Source: Polyangiaceae bacterium (GTDB lineage: Bacteria > Myxococcota_A > Polyangia > Polyangiales > Polyangiaceae). From it: a stretch of DNA of 64,000 nt. The position numbers were made by a program, and so were the translations under genes. The notes under the pieces were generated by a model. The model was not told the DNA's origin, did no database searches, and saw only the letters and a list, made by a program, of their open reading frames with translations. Location: NCBI GenBank assembly GCA_015075635.1, contig JABTUA010000003.1, forward strand, positions 1,302,001-1,366,000. The letters run 5' to 3'. The stretch's first letter is position 1, and every line of letters begins with the position of its first letter. Positions 41,734-64,000 of the stretch are shown piece after piece.

Positions 41734-42003
41734 GGCCGCCTTTTTAAGTCAGGACGACGCCTCGCGCCACTCCACGCCTCGGGTTTCGCCCTTTGGCGCC
41801 CCGTGGCTGCCGCCGCGCCCTGCCTTCATCGAGGTCGTCGTCGAGACCCACTCGGGAGACGCCAGGCGGAAGTTCCCACCTAGCGCCGGGAGTGCGCCGG
41901 CCCCGCCGGTGCTCTCGTGAGTCTCGGCCTCAGTGGCGGATCGCGATCCGCTCGTGCCAAGACAGCGGAAGTCGAGACCGGTACAATCCGCCGCGGAGGC
42001 CCC
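41734..42003. other. Intergenic region upstream of the acyl-CoA dehydrogenase
   Basis: 270 bases with no convincing gene. A 62-codon plus-strand frame (41732-41920) starts opposite the lipoprotein start and contains APWLPPRPAFIEVVVETHSG, but it has no ribosome site and stops abruptly. The GGAGG ribosome site for the next gene is at about 41994. Confidence 0.4.
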
Positions 42004-43148
<1,145 letters not shown>

Positions 43149-43279
43149 CGTTGCCTCAGCCATGTGCCTGAGGTCATGGCGCGGAGGCGAGCGATCCAGT
43201 AATCTCGTCCGTATGACGGGAAGGGGACGCCCGCAGCAATCCGAGACGCCCGCCGGGCGCCCATCACTGGTGATGGCGA

Positions 43280-43912
43280 TTGGACTCCAGCCGCCCGAGC
43301 TGGCAACCGTCGAAGCATGGTGCGGCGCGGGCGATTGCAGACGCACTTGGCGACGTCCCCCCGCCCGAATTGGTCGAGCTAGTCGTCTTGGACGTCCTGG
43401 CATCGCCTGGGCTGCTCAGCGAGGAGACTTGCCATCGCACGCGCGTGGTGTGTGTGGGCGGCACCGGGGCCACGCCGTGTGCCGCCCGCGCGCTTCGCGC
43501 AGGCGCCCTGGACTACGTCTTGCGCTCTTGTGACTCCGACGAGCTGGCGGCGCGGCTGGACGCGGCGATGTCGCGAGCCAGTCCGCTGCTCGCGACCTGC
43601 GGCGCGCGAGTCCAACTGAACGAGGATCGATGCTCCGTCTCGGCGCATGGGGACGAGCTCCTGCTGCGCCCGGCCGAATACGAGATTCTGCGCGCGCTGG
43701 TGACCGCCGACCAGAGCGCACAGTCCGCGCACGCTCTCCAGAAGCGGTGCCTCCGTGTCGCGGGCGACGGGGCCAGCGTCCGCAATCACGTCTACGAGAT
43801 CCGCGAGAGGTTCCGTCGCGCGGGATGGCCGGATCCCATCGATACTCGACGTGGCGTCGGATATCGCATCACCGGCGGCCTGTTCTTCGTGCCCGGTGAG
43901 GTCGCGCGATGA
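43280..43912 (+). CDS. OmpR/PhoB-type winged-helix regulator with incomplete receiver
   Basis: A 210-residue regulator. Residues ~30-105 look like the second half of a receiver domain (LVVLDVLASPGLLSEE; AARALRAGALDYVLRSCDSD), with an Asp after beta-3 but without the usual N-terminal acidic pair. Residues ~115-205 are an OmpR-type winged helix: LLLRPAEYEILRALVTADQS, GASVRNHVYEIRERFRRAGW, DTRRGVGYRITGG. The TTG start at 43280 is weak. The missing beta-1/alpha-1 appears to lie in another frame from ATG 43213 (PSLVMAIGLQPPELATVEAW), so a frameshift is likely. The stop overlaps the serpin ATG (ATGA), tying the regulator to the serpin. Confidence 0.75.
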   Translation: MDSSRPSWQPSKHGAARAIADALGDVPPPELVELVVLDVLASPGLLSEETCHRTRVVCVGGTGATPCAARALRAGALDYVLRSCDSDELAARLDAAMSRASPLLATCGARVQLNEDRCSVSAHGDELLLRPAEYEILRALVTADQSAQSAHALQKRCLRVAGDGASVRNHVYEIRERFRRAGWPDPIDTRRGVGYRITGGLFFVPGEVAR

Positions 43913-45258
43913 GCTCGCTCTCCCGCGCGGTGTCTCTTGTGCTGCTCGCCGGCGCCGTGGCCGCGACGTGCAGCCCTCCGCCGAACGAGCCCGCGCACCC
44001 GGCACGTCCCGCGAACGCCGACCCGGAGGCCGGAACGCCGCTGGATTCCAGCGCCGATGTCGGCGCGGCGGGATCGGGCGACGCCTCGGTCGATGCGGCC
44101 GAAGGGTCACCCGCGGAACCCGTCGTTCCGGCCTCCCTCGCGGACTCCGTCAACGCCTTCGCCCGCGACCTCCATCGCGAGCTCTCCGCAAAGGAAAAGG
44201 GGAACCTCATCTACTCTCCCCTGAGCATCTCCGTGGCGCTCACCATGACCTACGCGGGCGCGCGAGGAGAGACGGCGGAGGAGATGGCGAAGGTGCTGCA
44301 CCTCGGGCGGGACGCAACGGAGACCCACGCCGAGTACGCCAAGCTGATCCGGAAGCTGGGCTCGGAGCCGCTCCGGGGAGCGCCGGAGGTTCGGCTGGCG
44401 AATCGGCTCTGGCCGCAGAAGGGCATGGAGCTCCTGCCGGAGTTCGCGGAGGTCACCCGCCTGCACTACCGCGCGCCGCTGGAGCAGCTCGATTTCCAGA
44501 GCCAACCGGAGGCGTCGAGGCAGAGGATCAACTCCTGGGTGGAGCACGAGACCAAGGAACGAATTGCCGAGCTGCTCCCGAAGGGCAGCATCCATGAGGA
44601 GGTGCGCCTGGTCCTGACGAACGCCGTCTACTTCCACGGCCGATGGGCGACTCCCTTTGCCGAGGCTGCGACTCGCGACGAGCGCTTCTTCGTCAACGGC
44701 GTGACGCCGCGCTCGCTCCCGACCATGCGAGGAACGGTCGAGGCGCGCTACGCGGCGCTCGCGGACGCCCAGGTGGTCGAGCTCCCGTACGCGCGAGGCA
44801 ACGGACCGGAGTTGGCCATGGTCATCGTCCTGCCCAAGACGCGGAACGGGTTGCCCGACCTGGAGAAGCGCTTCGGCCGCGAGGGGGTCGGCGCGTACGT
44901 GCCGGAGCTCAGGCCGACGCGGGTGAGCCTCTGGCTGCCGCGCTTCACGGCGACTCGGCACTACGAGCTCAGTTTGATCCTGAAGAAGCTCGGCATGACA
45001 TTGGCCTTTTCGGAGGCGGACTTCTCAGGCATCACCGGGCGCCCCGGTCTGCACATCGACCAAGTATTCCACAAGGCCTTCGTCGAGACGACGGAGCGGG
45101 GAACTACCGCAGCCGCAGCGACGGCCGTTGTGATGGTCGGTATCAGCGAGTCCCCGACACCAGAGATGCGGGTCGACCACCCCTTCCTCTTCTTTGTCCG
45201 AGACCGCCGCTCCGGCGCCGTGCTGTTTGCGGGCCGCATCGTGGCACCAGGTGGTTGA
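43909..45258 (+). CDS. Serpin (serine protease inhibitor) lipoprotein 1
   Basis: A 449-residue serpin with an export signal ending at Cys21 (GAVAATC) and a low-complexity linker to about residue 72. The serpin fold follows at full length: NLIYSPLSISVALTMTYAGA, RINSWVEHETKERIAELLPK (helix F region), TNAVYFHGRWATPF, and the C-terminal signature VDHPFLFFVRDRRSGAVLFA. The reactive loop hinge is ERGTTAAAATA (396-406), the small-residue pattern of inhibitory serpins. By spacing from P17 Glu396, P1 would be Ile412, suggesting an elastase- or chymotrypsin-like target. It is coupled to the regulator by ATGA overlap. The likely target is a neighbouring or foreign protease. Confidence 0.92.
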   Translation: MSSLSRAVSLVLLAGAVAATCSPPPNEPAHPARPANADPEAGTPLDSSADVGAAGSGDASVDAAEGSPAEPVVPASLADSVNAFARDLHRELSAKEKGNLIYSPLSISVALTMTYAGARGETAEEMAKVLHLGRDATETHAEYAKLIRKLGSEPLRGAPEVRLANRLWPQKGMELLPEFAEVTRLHYRAPLEQLDFQSQPEASRQRINSWVEHETKERIAELLPKGSIHEEVRLVLTNAVYFHGRWATPFAEAATRDERFFVNGVTPRSLPTMRGTVEARYAALADAQVVELPYARGNGPELAMVIVLPKTRNGLPDLEKRFGREGVGAYVPELRPTRVSLWLPRFTATRHYELSLILKKLGMTLAFSEADFSGITGRPGLHIDQVFHKAFVETTERGTTAAAATAVVMVGISESPTPEMRVDHPFLFFVRDRRSGAVLFAGRIVAPGG

Positions 45259-45292
45259 AGGTACGGTCGCGTCGGATCGTTCGGCACAGCGA

Positions 45293-45311
45293 GATCTGAC
45301 GTGGATCTGAC
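45293..45311 (+). promoter_or_regulatory. OmpR/PhoB-type direct repeat before serpin 2
   Basis: GATCTGAC at 45293 and 45304, an exact direct repeat with an 11-bp period. This is the spacing used by tandem OmpR/PhoB winged-helix subunits. A -10-like TACACT lies at 45332, placing the second repeat over the -35 position, as at activator-dependent promoters. The regulator encoded at 43280 is the obvious candidate. The same layout recurs before the protease. Confidence 0.6.
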
Positions 45312-45409
45312 GGCTACGTGGACTCGCCCGGTACACTCTCGAGGCTCGGAGGACTGCCATGTCGAAAGCCCGCTGTCCGCCTGTTCTTCGTGCCCTGCGA
45401 GGTCGCGCG

Positions 45410-46765
45410 ATGAGCTCGCCCTCCCGCGCGGTGTCTCTTCTGCTGTTCGCCGGCGCCGTGGCCGCGACGTGCAGCCCTCCGCCGAACGAGCCCGCGCACC
45501 CGGCACGTCCCGCGAACGCCGACCCGGAGGCCGGAACGCCGCTGGATTCCAGCGCCGATGTCGGCGCGGCGGGATCGGGCGACGCCTCGGTCGATGCGGC
45601 CGAAGGGTCACCCGCGGAACCCGTCGTTCCGGCCTCCCTCGCGGACTCCGTCAACGCCTTCGCCCGCGACCTCCATCGCGAGCTCTCCGCAAAGGAAAAG
45701 GGGAACCTCATCTACTCTCCCCTGAGCATCTCCGTGGCGCTCACCATGACCTACGCGGGCGCGCGAGGAGAGACGGCGGAGGAGATGGCGAAGGTGCTGC
45801 ACCTCGGGCGGGACGCAACGGAGACCCACGCCGGGTACGCCAAGCTGATCCAGAAGCTGGGCTCGGAGCCGCTCCGGGGAGCGCCGGAGGTTCGGCTGGC
45901 GAATCGGCTCTGGCCGCAGAAGGGCATGGAGCTCGTGCCGGAGTTCGCGGAGGTCACTCGCCTGCACTACCGCGCGCCGCTGGAGCAGCTCGATTTCCAG
46001 AGCCAACCGGAGGCGTCGAGGCAGAGGATCAACTCCTGCGGAGTTGGACGAGACCATGAACGACCGCGACGCCCGAAGGGCAGCATCCACGAGCTCGTGC
46101 AGTTGGTCTTGACCAATGCCATCTACTTCCACGGCCGCTGGGCGACTCCCTTCTCCGAAGCTGCGACTCGCGACGAGCGCTTCTTCGTCAACGGCGTGAC
46201 GCCGCGCTCGCTCCCGACCATGCGAGGAACGGTCGAGGCGCGCTACGCGGCGCTCGCGGACGCCCAGGTGGTCGAGCTCCCGTACGCGCGAGGCAACGGA
46301 CCGGAGTTGGCCATGGTCATCGTCCTGCCCAAGACGCGGAACGGGTTGCCCGACCTGGAGAAGCGCTTCGGCCGCGAGGGGGTCGGCGCGTACGTGCCGG
46401 AGCTCAGGCCGACGCGGGTGAGCCTCTGGCTGCCGCGCTTCACGGCTACGGTGCGATTCAAGCTCAAGTCGCCACTCGAGAAGCTCGGCATGCTGCTGGC
46501 TTTCACGACCAGCGCGGACTTCTCCGGCATCACCAGGCGCCCCCCGACACTGTACATCGAGGACGTGTATCACAAGGCATTCGTCGAGACCTCGGAGAAG
46601 GGTACAGAGGCGTCAGCGGGTACTGCAGTTGTCATGAGGACCATCGTGAGCGACTCCCCTCCGCCGCCCGAGGTCAAAGTCGACCACCCGTTCCTGTTCT
46701 TCATCCACGACCGCCGCTCCGGCGCCGTGCTGTTCGCGGGCCGCATCGTCGCACCAGGTGGTTGA
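45410..46765 (+). CDS. Serpin (serine protease inhibitor) lipoprotein 2
   Basis: A 451-residue paralogue of the upstream serpin, from ATG 45410. The frame is also open from ATG 45359, which would add 17 residues (MSKARCPPVL...) taken from the duplicated protease start; Cys21 and the signal favour 45410. The first ~208 residues differ from serpin 1 at only about six places. Then RINSCGVGRDHERPRRPKGS replaces the helix F region and looks like a short compensated frameshift. The hinge is SEKGTEASAGTAVVM and the loop is two residues longer, ending RTIVSDSPPPPEV, with Arg near P3. It should therefore recognise a different protease, if it still folds. Confidence 0.88.
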   Translation: MSSPSRAVSLLLFAGAVAATCSPPPNEPAHPARPANADPEAGTPLDSSADVGAAGSGDASVDAAEGSPAEPVVPASLADSVNAFARDLHRELSAKEKGNLIYSPLSISVALTMTYAGARGETAEEMAKVLHLGRDATETHAGYAKLIQKLGSEPLRGAPEVRLANRLWPQKGMELVPEFAEVTRLHYRAPLEQLDFQSQPEASRQRINSCGVGRDHERPRRPKGSIHELVQLVLTNAIYFHGRWATPFSEAATRDERFFVNGVTPRSLPTMRGTVEARYAALADAQVVELPYARGNGPELAMVIVLPKTRNGLPDLEKRFGREGVGAYVPELRPTRVSLWLPRFTATVRFKLKSPLEKLGMLLAFTTSADFSGITRRPPTLYIEDVYHKAFVETSEKGTEASAGTAVVMRTIVSDSPPPPEVKVDHPFLFFIHDRRSGAVLFAGRIVAPGG

Positions 46766-46799
46766 AGGTACCGCTGCGTCGGATCTTTCAGTACAGCGA

Positions 46800-46818
46800 G
46801 ATCTGACATAGATCTGAC
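46800..46818 (+). promoter_or_regulatory. OmpR/PhoB-type direct repeat before the FG-GAP protease gene
   Basis: GATCTGAC at 46800 and 46811, again with an 11-bp period, and TACACC at 46839 the same 21 bases beyond the last repeat as in the upstream copy. Bases between the repeats differ (GTG versus ATA) while the repeats themselves are unchanged, which argues that they are functional sites. GGAGGAGTGCC precedes the protease ATG. Confidence 0.6.
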
Positions 46819-46863
46819 GGCCACGGCTGCTCGCCCAGTACACCCTCGACTCGGAGGAGTGCC

Positions 46864-48402
46864 ATGTCGAAAGCCGCGCGAGCATCTGCGGGTCTCTGTG
46901 TCGTCATCGCCGTGATCGCGTGTGCCTCCGTCGAGGACCGCGCCGAGCCGATCGGCGACCGCGGCGACGCGATCATCAACGGCACCGCGATCACCGATCC
47001 CGTGCAAGTCGAGGTCTCGAAGAACGTTCATCTCCGCACGATTCAGGGCGGCGCCCAATGTTCGCAAGGTAGCGGCACGCTGTTGACGAACGAGTGGGTC
47101 CTCACCGCGTGGCACGTGGTCAGCAACGCTTGCGGGGGCGCTTGCGCGGCGGTCCAGCCGAACGAGGTCGATGTCACGCTCGGCGACATCACTTTGGGTC
47201 ACCAGTCCCGAAAGGCGGATCGCTTCGTCTTCCATCCTCGGGTCGGAGCACACAATTGCTTCGGCAATCCCGATACCGACATCGCGCTGGTGCATCTGGC
47301 GAGCCCGTTCAACCTCGCCGGGAGCACCACCGGGCACTTCCGGCCCATCTCCGATCTGGACACGCCGAACCTCTTCCTGAAACCGACGACCTGCTTTGGC
47401 TACGGGCGCTCCGCGCTCTGCGGCTCGGCGGGGCCGCCGCTGCGATTCGCCGACTTCGTCGTTCGACCCTACCCGGCCCCGTTCCCGTACACCACCCAGC
47501 CGCCAGCCTCCGTGGGCTTCACGGTCATGAAGGGTGGCGGCGTCACCCACGACGACCTAGGGACAGGTGTCATGCCGTACAGCGGCGACTCTGGTGGGCC
47601 GTGCATCGACCCCAACGACCCTATCAAGGGCAAGGAGGACGTGCTCGGGGTGATTCAGTCCGTCGATGGCGACCGAGGGTTCACCTGCCCCTCGGGTGCC
47701 TCGGAGCTCGATCCACGCTTCACGAGGATCGTCGCCGCCTCCGCCTTTCGCGACTTCGCGCGAGCAGTCCTCGCGTCCGCGATGCCGCCGGTCCAGATGG
47801 ACATCAACTTCGACGGACACCTCGACACCTTCTTCATCAAGGAGCTCGCGGGTCACCTCTTCGTCGAGGTCCAGCTGGGCGGGCCAGGTGGCGTGGTGTT
47901 CACTCTCCCTCCAACCGGCATCCCGAAGATCCTGCCTGCTGGCTCCGACCGCGCGATGATCCAGCACGGCGACTTCGACAAGGACGGGATCCAGGATCTC
48001 TTCGCCTACATCAACGGAGTCCCGCTGTACCTCCCCGGCGTCATCGGGTTCAACCCCGCAACGCCCGTCCCGACGAACCTGAGCCTCGTCTCGAGCTACC
48101 AGTACGTCGCGCCGCGCGACGTGAACAAGGACGGCACCGACGACCTTGTCGCCGTACAGAGCGACGGAACCGAGCACATCTACCTCGGTCAGGCCGGGAA
48201 GGGTCTCACCTCGGCCGCTCACCTGTTCCCGCGTGGTTTCAGGTTCTTCGAGCCCGATGACGAGGAGTCGTTCGCCATCTCCGCGCCGAGCTTCAGCAAG
48301 AGTCGTTCTCCACGCCCGGCTCGATCAAGGCCACCAAAGGCCTCGTGTACCTGGTGTCGAAGGACGCGGACGGGACCCTCTACAAGGACGAGCTCGACCT
48401 GA
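46864..48402 (+). CDS. Secreted trypsin-like protease with FG-GAP repeats, N-terminal part (frameshifted)
   Basis: Starts ATG 46864 with a signal and lipobox AVIAC (Cys20). AIINGTAITDP (about 36-46) resembles the activation site of trypsin-like zymogens. The S1 domain has NEWVLTAWHVV (His84), NPDTDIALVHL (Asp139) and PYSGDSGGPC (Ser243), so the triad is complete. FG-GAP-type strands begin at about 310 (MDINFDGHLDTFF, HGDFDKDGIQDLFAY, PRDVNKDGTDDLVAV). The good frame ends near 48300, and the last ~35 codons to the stop are out of frame. It follows the serpins directly and is a likely target of at least one of them (inference). Confidence 0.88.
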   Translation: MSKAARASAGLCVVIAVIACASVEDRAEPIGDRGDAIINGTAITDPVQVEVSKNVHLRTIQGGAQCSQGSGTLLTNEWVLTAWHVVSNACGGACAAVQPNEVDVTLGDITLGHQSRKADRFVFHPRVGAHNCFGNPDTDIALVHLASPFNLAGSTTGHFRPISDLDTPNLFLKPTTCFGYGRSALCGSAGPPLRFADFVVRPYPAPFPYTTQPPASVGFTVMKGGGVTHDDLGTGVMPYSGDSGGPCIDPNDPIKGKEDVLGVIQSVDGDRGFTCPSGASELDPRFTRIVAASAFRDFARAVLASAMPPVQMDINFDGHLDTFFIKELAGHLFVEVQLGGPGGVVFTLPPTGIPKILPAGSDRAMIQHGDFDKDGIQDLFAYINGVPLYLPGVIGFNPATPVPTNLSLVSSYQYVAPRDVNKDGTDDLVAVQSDGTEHIYLGQAGKGLTSAAHLFPRGFRFFEPDDEESFAISAPSFSKSRSPRPARSRPPKASCTWCRRTRTGPSTRTSST

Positions 48403-49841
48403 ACCTCGACGGGGAGGCGGGGCTTCCAACTCCGGAGGCCGCTGACGCTTACGGTTTCGCCATGGCATGGGGCAACTTCAGCAAGAGCGCGAGCGGGCTG
48501 GCGGAGCTCGTCACCGGCGCGCCCGGCAGGGCCGTGGGAACCGTGAAGAACGCCGGCGTGGTGCAGTGGATGCGGTACAACCCTGCCAAGAGCACCGCGC
48601 CCTTCGTTGACTCCAAATCGGTCGATCGCGCGACGTTCGGCGAGAAGCCGTCCCAGTGGGGCTACTTTGGCGGCGCCCTCTCTGCCGGCGACTTCGACGG
48701 GGACGGCGCGGATGACCTGGCGATTGGACGCACCGGTGGCGTTCACGTGATGACGGGTGGCGGCACTGGTGCTTTCCCGCTCACGGCGAAGCAGACCCTC
48801 ACCGCGTCCACGTTCGGCGTCAGCGGGTCCGCCTTCCCTTCTTCCTTGACGTCCGGCGATTTCAACTGCGACGGCTTCGAGGACCTGGCGATCGGAATGG
48901 GCGGAGCCGAGGTCCAGGGAATCGAGGCCGGAGCGGTGATCGTCGCGTATGGTGGCTCTTCCGGCTTGGCGCTCCCGGTGGCAGGGCAAGGTGGCGCCTG
49001 GCAGCGGATCGACAAGTCAATGGCGCTTGGCGCGGGCTCACCCAAGGCAGCCGATCACTTCGGCTACGTGCTCGCGGCGGGGAACTTCAACGGAGACAGC
49101 TACAACGGCAGGCCGTGCATCGACCTCGCGGTAGCCTCGGAGCCCAGGGGCGGGCTCACGTTCGGGAAGGGCGGGAAGATCACGAAGGTCTTGAACGTGG
49201 GGGCGGTGACCATCGTCCGCGGCGGACCCGGTGGGTTGACCACTGCCGGGGCCCAACACCTGAAACAGGGCAGCATGGCGGGGGGCACGGCGATCAAGGA
49301 TCTCTCGGAGGTTCGCGATCAGTTTGGCCAAGGGCTGGCAATCACCGCGGCGGACACCGACGGGTTCGACGACCTCGTCGTGGGTGCGTGGGGAGAGGAC
49401 GACGCTGCCGGCGCGGCGCATGTTCTTCGTGGAAGCGCGCAAGGGCTCACCGGAGTCGGTCAAGCTCTCTGGCGAGAGAGCGACTTGCAGGGCACGTCCA
49501 AGGCGGGCAACGCCTTCGGGCAGACCGTCGGCGGGACCGCCAATGGCGTGCTCATCCTCAGCGCCCCGAACGAGACCTTTCCGGGCCCCGAGATCGGCAA
49601 GGCCGACATCCGCGAGGCTGGATGGGTCGCGCTCGTACGGCTCTCGGACTCTTCGCCCATCTCGGCGTCAACCGTCTCGCCGGCGACTCAGGCGACCGTC
49701 GGCGGAACACTCACCGAGGGCGGACATTTCGGGCGCGCGGTGACCGCAGCCAGGCCGGCGTTCGTTCCCGCGAGCGCCGCGCAGGTCCGCTTCGACGGGA
49801 CGGTCATCTCGGCTGGACCCGCACCACGCCTGCTTCGCTGA
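48345..49841 (+). CDS. FG-GAP repeat C-terminal part of the preceding protease (after frameshift)
   Basis: Protein sense resumes at about 48300 in another frame (SFSTPGSIKATKGLVYLVSK) and continues for ~500 residues. It has integrin-like FG-GAP blades: AGDFDGDGADDLAIGRTGGV, SGDFNCDGFEDLAIGMGGA, AAGNFNGDSYNGRPCIDLAV and ITAADTDGFDDLVVGAWGED. These Asp-rich loops bind calcium in the integrin-type propeller. There is no signal or ribosome site before GTG 48345, so I read it as the second half of one ~990-residue protein broken by a single-base shift near 48300. Confidence 0.8.
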   Translation: MYLVSKDADGTLYKDELDLNLDGEAGLPTPEAADAYGFAMAWGNFSKSASGLAELVTGAPGRAVGTVKNAGVVQWMRYNPAKSTAPFVDSKSVDRATFGEKPSQWGYFGGALSAGDFDGDGADDLAIGRTGGVHVMTGGGTGAFPLTAKQTLTASTFGVSGSAFPSSLTSGDFNCDGFEDLAIGMGGAEVQGIEAGAVIVAYGGSSGLALPVAGQGGAWQRIDKSMALGAGSPKAADHFGYVLAAGNFNGDSYNGRPCIDLAVASEPRGGLTFGKGGKITKVLNVGAVTIVRGGPGGLTTAGAQHLKQGSMAGGTAIKDLSEVRDQFGQGLAITAADTDGFDDLVVGAWGEDDAAGAAHVLRGSAQGLTGVGQALWRESDLQGTSKAGNAFGQTVGGTANGVLILSAPNETFPGPEIGKADIREAGWVALVRLSDSSPISASTVSPATQATVGGTLTEGGHFGRAVTAARPAFVPASAAQVRFDGTVISAGPAPRLLR

Positions 49842-61991: not shown

Positions 61992-62107
61992 GCCCCGCAT
62001 CGTACCCCAACGGTCCGGCGCCTTGCGCCGTGATACACCTCGCGGAACGTGCCCCCGTGGGCCTCGGCGGGAAGCCGGGCGGTTCGGCGGCGTAGGAAGG
62101 TCCCCGC

Positions 62108-64000
62108 ATGTTTCTCGTCGGTTCTCGGCGCTCCTGGCTCCCCCGCACGCGCCTCGCGCTCGTCGCTCTCGTGCTCTCCGCCTGTGGTGGCGGCTCCGCG
62201 CCGGCGGGCCCTCGGACGGCCAACGACTCGTCCCAGAAGGCCAAGACCGGCGACGAGAAGCCCGGCGCGGGCGGGCGTCACGTCATTCCGAAGGGCGAGC
62301 GCGTGCCGAGCGACAAACTCGTCGATCGGCGCACCAGCCGGGCGGTCGCGGACGACACCATCGGTGTGGTCACCAACAAGCGGGCCAAGCCGCCGAAGAC
62401 CTCCGCCGAGGTCTACAAGGCGGCCGCCCCCGCAACGGTGATCATCCGCGCCGGCGGGGGTCTCGGCAGCGGCGTCATCATCGATCCCGACGGTTGGGTG
62501 CTCACCAACCACCACGTCGTCGCCCAGGGCGAGCAGTCGGAGTTCAAGACCAAGGTCACCGTCGTGCTCGGCAAGCTCAGCGCGACGAGCGGCGGCATGA
62601 TCCGGCAGAAGAAGGAGTACGAGGCCTTCGTTCACAAGTCGGACAAGCTGCGCGACATCGCGCTGCTCAAGATCGTGGACCCGCCCGGGAAGCTGCCCAC
62701 GATCAGCCTGGCCAAGGACAACCCGCAGCCCGGACAGCAGGTGATCGCCCTCGGGCACGCCGGCGCCGGCATGCTCTGGGCGCTGAAGGCCGGGGAGATC
62801 TCCGCGATGGGCAAGCTGAGCGAGCAGCTCGCCACCCTGGCTCAGTTCAAGGACGACAAGGCCGGGCACGAGGCCGAGGACAAGTTCAAGAAGTACCTGG
62901 ACGAGCGCAACCTCGGCCTGGTGATCCAGTCCACCTGCAACATCTTGCCGGGTGACAGCGGTGGGCCGTTGCTCACGAAGAGCGGCGAGCTGATCGGCCT
63001 GAACGCCTTCAGCAACCAGGACCCGCGCACCGGCGGTCTGCTCAGCTTCCACGTGCACAAGTCCGAGCTCGCTGCGTTCATGAAGGACCGCCCGGCGCGG
63101 CCCGCGCGGCTGGTGCCCGACCCCTGGAAGGACGGCGGCGGCGACGCGAGCTACGAGGACGTGGACCTCGACGGGCGCGTGGACGCTTTGGTGCTCGAGG
63201 GCCGGCGCGCCTGCAGCTTCTGTCCGCGCCAGAGCGTCGCGGTGTTCTTCGACGTCGATCAGGACACGTACCGCGGGGTCACCAACCTGCCGCCGCTGAG
63301 CGAGACCTACCAGAAGCAGAAGTTCGACGCGGAGCTGGTGTACCTACAGGTCGAGCGCGACACCTTCCTCTGGTACGACACGGACAACGACGGGAAGCTC
63401 GACCTGCTGATCCACGACCCGGGCTCGACCGGGCGCTCGGCGGGGGCCTACCGCATCAAGAAGGACGGCGACTTCGAGAAGGACGACGCGGCGAGCGCGG
63501 GACGCGACGTGCGCAGCGCGCTGCTCAAGGACGGCGCGCTCCAAGCCAGCCTTCAGCGCATCGCCAACGCCGCCTTCCCTCAGCACTACGTCGAGGCCGG
63601 CTCCGCTGCCAACGACACGCTCCCGGAGCCCGTCGGCCGTACCGGCAAGGCGTCGCTCAGCGATCTCGACTACGACGGACAGATCGACTCCGTGCGCGTG
63701 GACTCCGCGTTCAGCTACCGGCTGCTCTTGGACGTGGACAGAAACAGCGTCGGGGCGCTGCCCAAGGAGTTCAACCTGGCGACCTCGACCTCCAAGATCG
63801 ACGCCGAGGTCGCCGTCGTGTCCCAGGCGAACCACATGTGGACCTGGTACGACACGGACGACGACGGCCGCTTCGACCTCGTCCTGCACTCTCCGGGCGC
63901 GCGGCTCTACGTCGCGACGGACGCCTGGCGGGTGGACGCGAGCGGCGCGAGGACCCCGGCGCCCGAGCAGGTGGGTCGCAAGCTCGTTCGCGCCGATTTG
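62108..64000 (+). CDS. HtrA-like trypsin-family protease lipoprotein with DxDxDG repeats (3' end outside window)
   Basis: Open from ATG 62108 to the end of the window (631 codons seen), with the ribosome site AGGAAGG 7 bases upstream. Lipobox LVLSAC (Cys26). The S1C protease domain has DGWVLTNHHVV (catalytic His136), LRDIALLKI (Asp183) and ILPGDSGGPLL (Ser284). After about 345 come repeated Asp-rich strands: EDVDLDGRVDALVLEG, WYDTDNDGKLDLLIHD, SDLDYDGQIDSVRVD and WYDTDDDGRFDLVLHS. These resemble FG-GAP/EF-hand-like calcium loops. It is likely a periplasmic or surface quality-control or digestive protease. Third protease of this theme in the window. Confidence 0.88.
   Translation, partial: MFLVGSRRSWLPRTRLALVALVLSACGGGSAPAGPRTANDSSQKAKTGDEKPGAGGRHVIPKGERVPSDKLVDRRTSRAVADDTIGVVTNKRAKPPKTSAEVYKAAAPATVIIRAGGGLGSGVIIDPDGWVLTNHHVVAQGEQSEFKTKVTVVLGKLSATSGGMIRQKKEYEAFVHKSDKLRDIALLKIVDPPGKLPTISLAKDNPQPGQQVIALGHAGAGMLWALKAGEISAMGKLSEQLATLAQFKDDKAGHEAEDKFKKYLDERNLGLVIQSTCNILPGDSGGPLLTKSGELIGLNAFSNQDPRTGGLLSFHVHKSELAAFMKDRPARPARLVPDPWKDGGGDASYEDVDLDGRVDALVLEGRRACSFCPRQSVAVFFDVDQDTYRGVTNLPPLSETYQKQKFDAELVYLQVERDTFLWYDTDNDGKLDLLIHDPGSTGRSAGAYRIKKDGDFEKDDAASAGRDVRSALLKDGALQASLQRIANAAFPQHYVEAGSAANDTLPEPVGRTGKASLSDLDYDGQIDSVRVDSAFSYRLLLDVDRNSVGALPKEFNLATSTSKIDAEVAVVSQANHMWTWYDTDDDGRFDLVLHSPGARLYVATDAWRVDASGARTPAPEQVGRKLVRADL

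Follow-up and report, generated by a model that had tools for sequence, protein, structure and literature searches.

How can two adjacent genes be almost identical, silent sites included, over most of their framework and differ strongly at the end that carries the reactive loop? The question is raised by a tandem pair of serpin genes, here called serpins A and B, in a 64,000-nucleotide stretch of DNA (the window) from a Polyangiaceae bacterium (contig JABTUA010000003.1, positions 1,302,001 to 1,366,000), which lies on a 2.53 Mb contig within a 9.47 Mb genome of five contigs. We favour, at a probability of roughly two in three, the view that A and B are old tandem duplicates whose framework has been patchily gene-converted, with the loop end left different. 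In window coordinates, the two genes are:

43909–45258, + strand: serpin A, 449 amino acids, with a signal/lipoprotein-like leader (Cys21), a Pro/Ala-rich linker and the serpin domain at about residues 80–447
45359–46765, + strand: serpin B, 468 amino acids, or 451 from the internal ATG at 45410, the counterpart of the serpin A start; domain near full length, helix F damaged

Near-identical tracts and diverged patches

Aligned with each other, the two genes alternate between near-identical and diverged DNA, with boundaries set by eye from the alignment (A coordinates, with the partner segment of B in brackets):

43951–44537 (B 45452–46038), + strand: near-identical tract 1, 4 mismatches in 587 nucleotides
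44538–44660 (B 46039–46155), + strand: diverged patch 1, helix F and the next strand, 34 of 117 positions mismatched (29%), 6 gap columns
44661–44948 (B 46156–46443), + strand: near-identical tract 2, 1 mismatch in 288 nucleotides
44949–45180 (B 46444–46687), + strand: diverged patch 2, the reactive-centre loop, 76 of 232 positions mismatched (33%), 12 gap columns

Within tract 1 the mismatches are confined to 44333–44537 (4/205), with 0/382 in 43951–44332. On the 3′ side of the loop patch, mismatches amount to 8/78 in the tail of the gene (45181–45258) and 16/98 in the intergenic DNA (45259–45358). At the protein level much of a preliminary description of the pair is borne out: its approximately six differing sites among some 208 N-terminal residues are exactly residues 4, 11, 13, 142, 148 and 176, its identical block at about 252–349 corresponds to codons 253–347, the strong divergence of the loop-bearing end runs from about residue 348 to 431, and the end residues are again the same in A and B. 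It had, however, recognised a single variable patch; the loop patch stands, but a second one at A residues 210–252 (SCGVGRDHERPRRPKG in B versus SWVEHETKERIAELLPKG in A) had been overlooked. Likewise, the length difference of two residues that it placed at the loop end is correct as a net value over the genes only, since the loop patch itself differs by four residues and B, being two residues shorter in the helix F patch, is left with a net gain of two.

Silent sites follow the same pattern. The synonymous difference (pS) between A and B is 0.01 over residues 80–208 and 0.03 over residues 259–352, versus 0.40, 0.48 and 0.75 over residues 209–258, 353–396 and 397–431, respectively. The corresponding nonsynonymous differences (pN) in the patches are 0.23, 0.25 and 0.29, the first of these being inflated by an out-of-frame stretch of B described below. 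In the loop patch pN/pS is therefore about 0.4–0.5, short of the nonsynonymous to synonymous ratio (dN/dS) above 1 that marks diversifying selection. The silent differences are also clustered as gene conversion would cluster them: 36 of 314 silent codons differ, the longest clean run is 100 codons, and none of 5000 permutations reached a run of that length (p ≤ 2e-4). Both diversifying selection and gene conversion had been offered as options in the preliminary description. With flanking silent divergence close to zero, the codon comparison speaks against the former and supports conversion, not DIVERSIFYING selection, as the process behind the mosaic. Silent divergence leaps from 0 to 0.75 over a sharp boundary, which replacement-driven selection would not bring about. 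As far as the sequence can be read, the pattern is one of homogenised flanks enclosing retained old divergence, rather than of accelerated change in the loop, and the divergence between A and B fits overall purifying selection.

The sequence of events would then be as follows. A unit of about 1.5 kb, comprising one serpin and the intergenic leader of its trypsin-like neighbour, would have been duplicated in tandem, and the copies would have diverged long enough for silent sites in the unconverted parts to become far apart. One or more recent gene conversions would then have made two framework tracts nearly identical, while two parts would have escaped, the patch at helix F and the loop-bearing C-terminal quarter.

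Several observations weigh against this scenario. The direction and number of conversions are unreadable from a single pair. The tail and the intergenic DNA, at 10% and 16% mismatch, differ less than the silent sites of the loop patch do, so that a third, older tract of homogenisation, or else constraint, has to be invoked as well. The scrambled stretch of B coincides exactly with a tract boundary, where an assembly error might fall, and within 6 kb there are two further frameshifts.

Assembly fault, imported loop or selection

The alternative that survives best is an assembly or consensus artefact, in which partial collapse or faulty polishing of two divergent tandem serpins produced identical tracts and a scrambled edge that do not exist in the cell. 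A chimeric second copy had been named in the preliminary description itself as grounds for refuting it. It bears directly on copy B, where one short segment is out of frame:

46037–46072, + strand: out-of-frame stretch of 12 codons in serpin B, in place of the conserved helix F motif W-x(4)-T-x(3)-I

This stretch reads CGVGRDHERPRR in B against WVEHETKERIAELL in A, and is interpreted as a pair of compensating frame changes because B, read here in a different frame, resembles the serpin motif. The three motif residues (W210, T215 and I219 in A numbering) are conserved in 101/104, 104/104 and 100/104 relatives, respectively; A keeps all three, and B as sequenced has none. In the models obtained with AlphaFold2 (AF2), helix F spans residues 200–214 in A, with a predicted local distance difference test score (pLDDT) of 98 for block 211–220, and just residues 200–208 in B, where pLDDT is 64. 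With helix F broken in this way, serpin B as sequenced is probably impaired.

Frame breaks also occur on both sides of the pair. The acyl-CoA dehydrogenase gene at 41917–43148 is split over two frames by an apparent single-base indel near 42588, likely a sequencing error or a recent lesion, and the trypsin-like FG-GAP gene at 46864–49841 is likewise split near 48300. Given two single-base frameshifts so close by, which may be indel errors or lesions, it is a real possibility that B was wrongly sequenced or assembled, and part of the mosaic may then be artefactual too. The long tracts with 0–1 mismatches and the position of the out-of-frame stretch at a tract boundary point the same way. Nevertheless, patches with some 30% mismatch inside the copies, together with their distinct flanks, argue that the assembler resolved both genes, the six amino acid differences persist within the near-identical N-terminal part, and comparable patchy tracts are found in the independent assemblies of L042 and L153, two other serpin arrays of the class. 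On balance we consider an artefact unlikely, though serious enough to be kept in mind.

It could also be imagined that recombination with a third, diverged serpin gave a fresh duplicate its loop end and its helix F patch. The loop patch is more diverged than either flank, 3′ tail and intergenic DNA included, and the patch of A is nearly equally close to L013/L014 of another genus (61%) and to B (62%). In a tree of 109 family serpins, however, A and B pair as sisters on their C-terminal loop patches, with an SH-like approximate likelihood ratio test (SH-aLRT) value of 95.7, which is moderate support since the tree is a quick one on only 89 columns, and this grouping makes an outside donor unnecessary. 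The preliminary description had spoken of swapped loops and proposed that related genomes be searched for copies that could donate the loop region. Neither idea gains support: among 108 family genomes (the own genome and 107 relatives) no DNA match to the B patch was closer than A itself (73%), and the remaining serpins of the own genome are one 35% homologue and one fragment. An outside loop donor was rejected on these grounds, and import is improbable.

That the reactive loop evolved fast in recent duplicates whose framework had no time to change is very improbable and was rejected: the reactive loop does fall in a diverged patch, and loop-core pN equals or exceeds pS for several pairs of another tandem array (L041), but silent sites of the patch are as diverged as in old paralogues (0.48–0.75) next to flanks at 0–0.03, replacement and silent divergence climb together with pN/pS below 1, and the second diverged patch, in helix F, is distant from the loop.

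Returning to gene conversion between old duplicates, ancestral states could not be polarised, because no homologous locus was found in relatives. The two other species of the genus have only a 34–35% serpin, a scan of genome contigs gave only a 37% relative, and elsewhere the trypsin-like neighbour has full-length matches of 34% at best and the response-regulator-like neighbour weak matches of 38% at best.

The two proteins and their gene setting

Both proteins match the Pfam family PF00079 over its whole length (profile 2–370 of 370), with 357 bits for A and 324 bits for B (cut-off 27 bits), bearing out the full serpin fold first ascribed to them. The AF2 models, with mean pLDDT of 84 (A) and 82 (B), agree with this assignment. 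Among solved structures the best matches of A are serpins (E 2.5e-75), namely serpins B3 and B4 and an 8gxv chain named proteinase inhibitor I4 serpin. The model of B retrieves serpins in Foldseek at E 1.4e-35, and the remainder of B outside helix F is still serpin-like. Both proteins open with a hydrophobic leader up to Cys21, followed by a long Pro/Ala-rich linker. An alignment of 27 family serpins has a consensus Cys close to the N-terminus, so that export with lipid anchoring is plausible.

The reactive loops were compared by counting P1 from the hinge Gly taken as P15; with variable loop lengths, the scissile bond may shift by one residue from the position given here:

45094–45183, + strand: reactive-centre loop of A, ERGTTAAAATAVVMVGI before and SESPTPEMRVDHP after the counted bond, with P15 = G398 and P1 = I412
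46595–46690, + strand: reactive-centre loop of B, EKGTEASAGTAVVMRTI before and VSDSPPPPEVKVDHP after the counted bond, with P1 = Ile

An Ile at the counted P1 is shared by both copies and found at that count in 2/104 relatives. The loop cores, MVGI/SES in A versus MRTI/VSD in B, thus differ mainly at P3, P2 and on the primed side, and altered specificity is possible. An inhibitory hinge had been noted in both proteins, and the assignment stands with small deviations: over P17–P9 (ExGTEAAAA-like) both keep G at P15, T at P14 and A at P12 and P10, while the A hinge, ERGTTAAAA, has Thr at P13 where 102/104 relatives carry Glu, and the B hinge, EKGTEASAG, has Ser at P11 and Gly at P9. Serpin A most likely works as inhibitory serpins usually do: its target, a serine protease, would cut the loop at about I412–S413 and stay acyl-linked, to be trapped once the hinge inserts into sheet A. 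That the proteins inhibit, which proteases they meet, where they reside and that they are expressed is inferred; the clients are likely to be secreted proteases of the own cell, of prey or of competitors, one candidate being the trypsin-like protein encoded next to the pair.

The duplicated unit exceeds the genes, at about 1501 bp, and includes some 110 bp of intergenic DNA at 84% identity. The repeat copies begin at 43878 and 45379 and reach ATGTCGAAAGC, the opening codons of the trypsin-like gene at 46864:

43280–43912, + strand: gene upstream of the pair for an OmpR-type winged-helix (Trans_reg_C) protein, with a stop that overlaps the serpin A start (ATGA)
43878–45378, + strand: tandem duplication unit 1, with serpin A, the DNA behind it and, as ATGTCGAAAGC, the opening codons of the next gene
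45259–45378, + strand: first copy of the intergenic repeat, preceding B, with GGAGGA and then ATGTCGAAAGC
45379–46875, + strand: tandem duplication unit 2, with serpin B, intergenic DNA and the start of the trypsin-like gene
46766–46875, + strand: second copy of the intergenic repeat, preceding the trypsin-like gene and 84% identical to the first
46864–49841, + strand: trypsin-like protease (GDSGGP) with FG-GAP repeats, downstream, in two frames

Since the intergenic block was duplicated, B sits behind a copy of the leader and Shine-Dalgarno-like GGAGGA of the 46864 gene. Serpin A may be translationally coupled to the regulator-like upstream gene, and serpin B may be under shared control with the trypsin-like gene. 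A scan of 43200–47000 for sigma-70 promoters and terminators gave no match. A second trypsin-like protein (GDSGGP) is encoded at 62096–64000 and runs past the window end; its C-terminal part is aspartate-rich and repeat-like (DVDLDGRVDAL, DTDNDGKLDLL).

Tandem serpins in the class and beyond

A further statement of the preliminary description, that bacterial serpins are uncommon, does not hold for this family. Serpins occur in 78/108 genomes of the family and in 188/318 genomes of the class (E ≤ 1e-40), and neighbouring serpins recur on at least seven other class contigs, with five in L041, three in L042 and two each in L043, L151, L152, L153 and L154. Like A and B, these are neighbouring paralogues. 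L042 and L153 also have long silent-identity tracts (p = 2e-4 and 4e-4, respectively, uncorrected for the 19 pair tests), from which patchy gene conversion appears to be recurrent in tandem serpins of the class. None of these pairs, however, combines such long tracts of zero divergence with such diverged patches as A and B do. The five-serpin array L041 (G009 C1:8718000-8734000), with its several pairs in which loop-core pN is at least equal to pS, may be a better place than the A–B pair to test diversifying selection. In a crude motif test, no GDSGG motif was found in the other serpin flanks examined, and thus no second case of a serpin next to a trypsin-like gene.

It is tempting to speculate that conversion keeps the framework uniform while selection removes those conversions that would erase the loop, so that several specificities are maintained on one scaffold per genome. 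If so, loop-sparing conversion would be a bacterial counterpart of the reactive-loop diversification of animals. We regard the idea as doubtful: the converted tracts of L042 and L153 exclude the loop core, but three informative arrays are too few to show selective protection. Because duplication and gene conversion explain the pattern and copy B may be damaged, the pair is weak evidence of adaptive diversification. The A–B mosaic is an ordinary mosaic of duplicate genes, a modest further example of a known phenomenon. Little is known of what serpins do in bacteria, and genomes of this family commonly carry one and often several; one framework with two loops, if real, would provide a convenient natural comparison of loop targets.

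Our literature search gave no paper uniting tandem serpins, gene conversion and the reactive center loop, and among papers found for serpin and Myxococc none treats such serpins. The bacterial inhibitory serpins of Groups T/U, i.e. miropin, tengpin, siropins and thermopin (PMC8233489), compared by features, have in common with A and B the serpin domain, an inhibitory-type hinge and an N-terminal export signal; unlike them, A and B are in tandem with a homogenised framework, and the helix F motif of B is broken. Variable reactive loops are also a feature of tandem serpin clusters in metazoa, for which the SERPINA3-like genes with their GARD breakpoints (PMC12646145), SERPINB3/B4 (PMC4136820) and Hill and Hastie 1987 (as cited in PMC3966226) may be compared. 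Tandem duplicates there share a framework and differ in their reactive loops, and recombination or gene conversion is implicated in some clusters, as for A and B, which differ in being bacterial and in showing no excess of amino acid changes over silent ones. A constant framework is similarly joined to variable C-terminal loop segments in an insect serpin that has a choice of reactive-loop exons (Jiang 1994, as cited in PMC3966226), but there, according to that summary, by alternative splicing of one gene, whereas A and B are two whole genes without a switching mechanism.

All three species of the genus share a separate, conserved serpin (L003/L044, at C1:2400537-2401694 in the own genome, L006 and L007). 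Its degenerate hinge (VDEGATAERSGDA; VDEGATAEGTGGG) suggests that it is non-inhibitory. A groEL-like gene adjoins it in the own genome, and none was found in the flanks examined of the other two species. An orphan piece elsewhere in the own genome (L004, C3:2501492-2501677) encodes only a serpin reactive-loop end (VNEAGTEAAAATAV...) and is probably a gene remnant.

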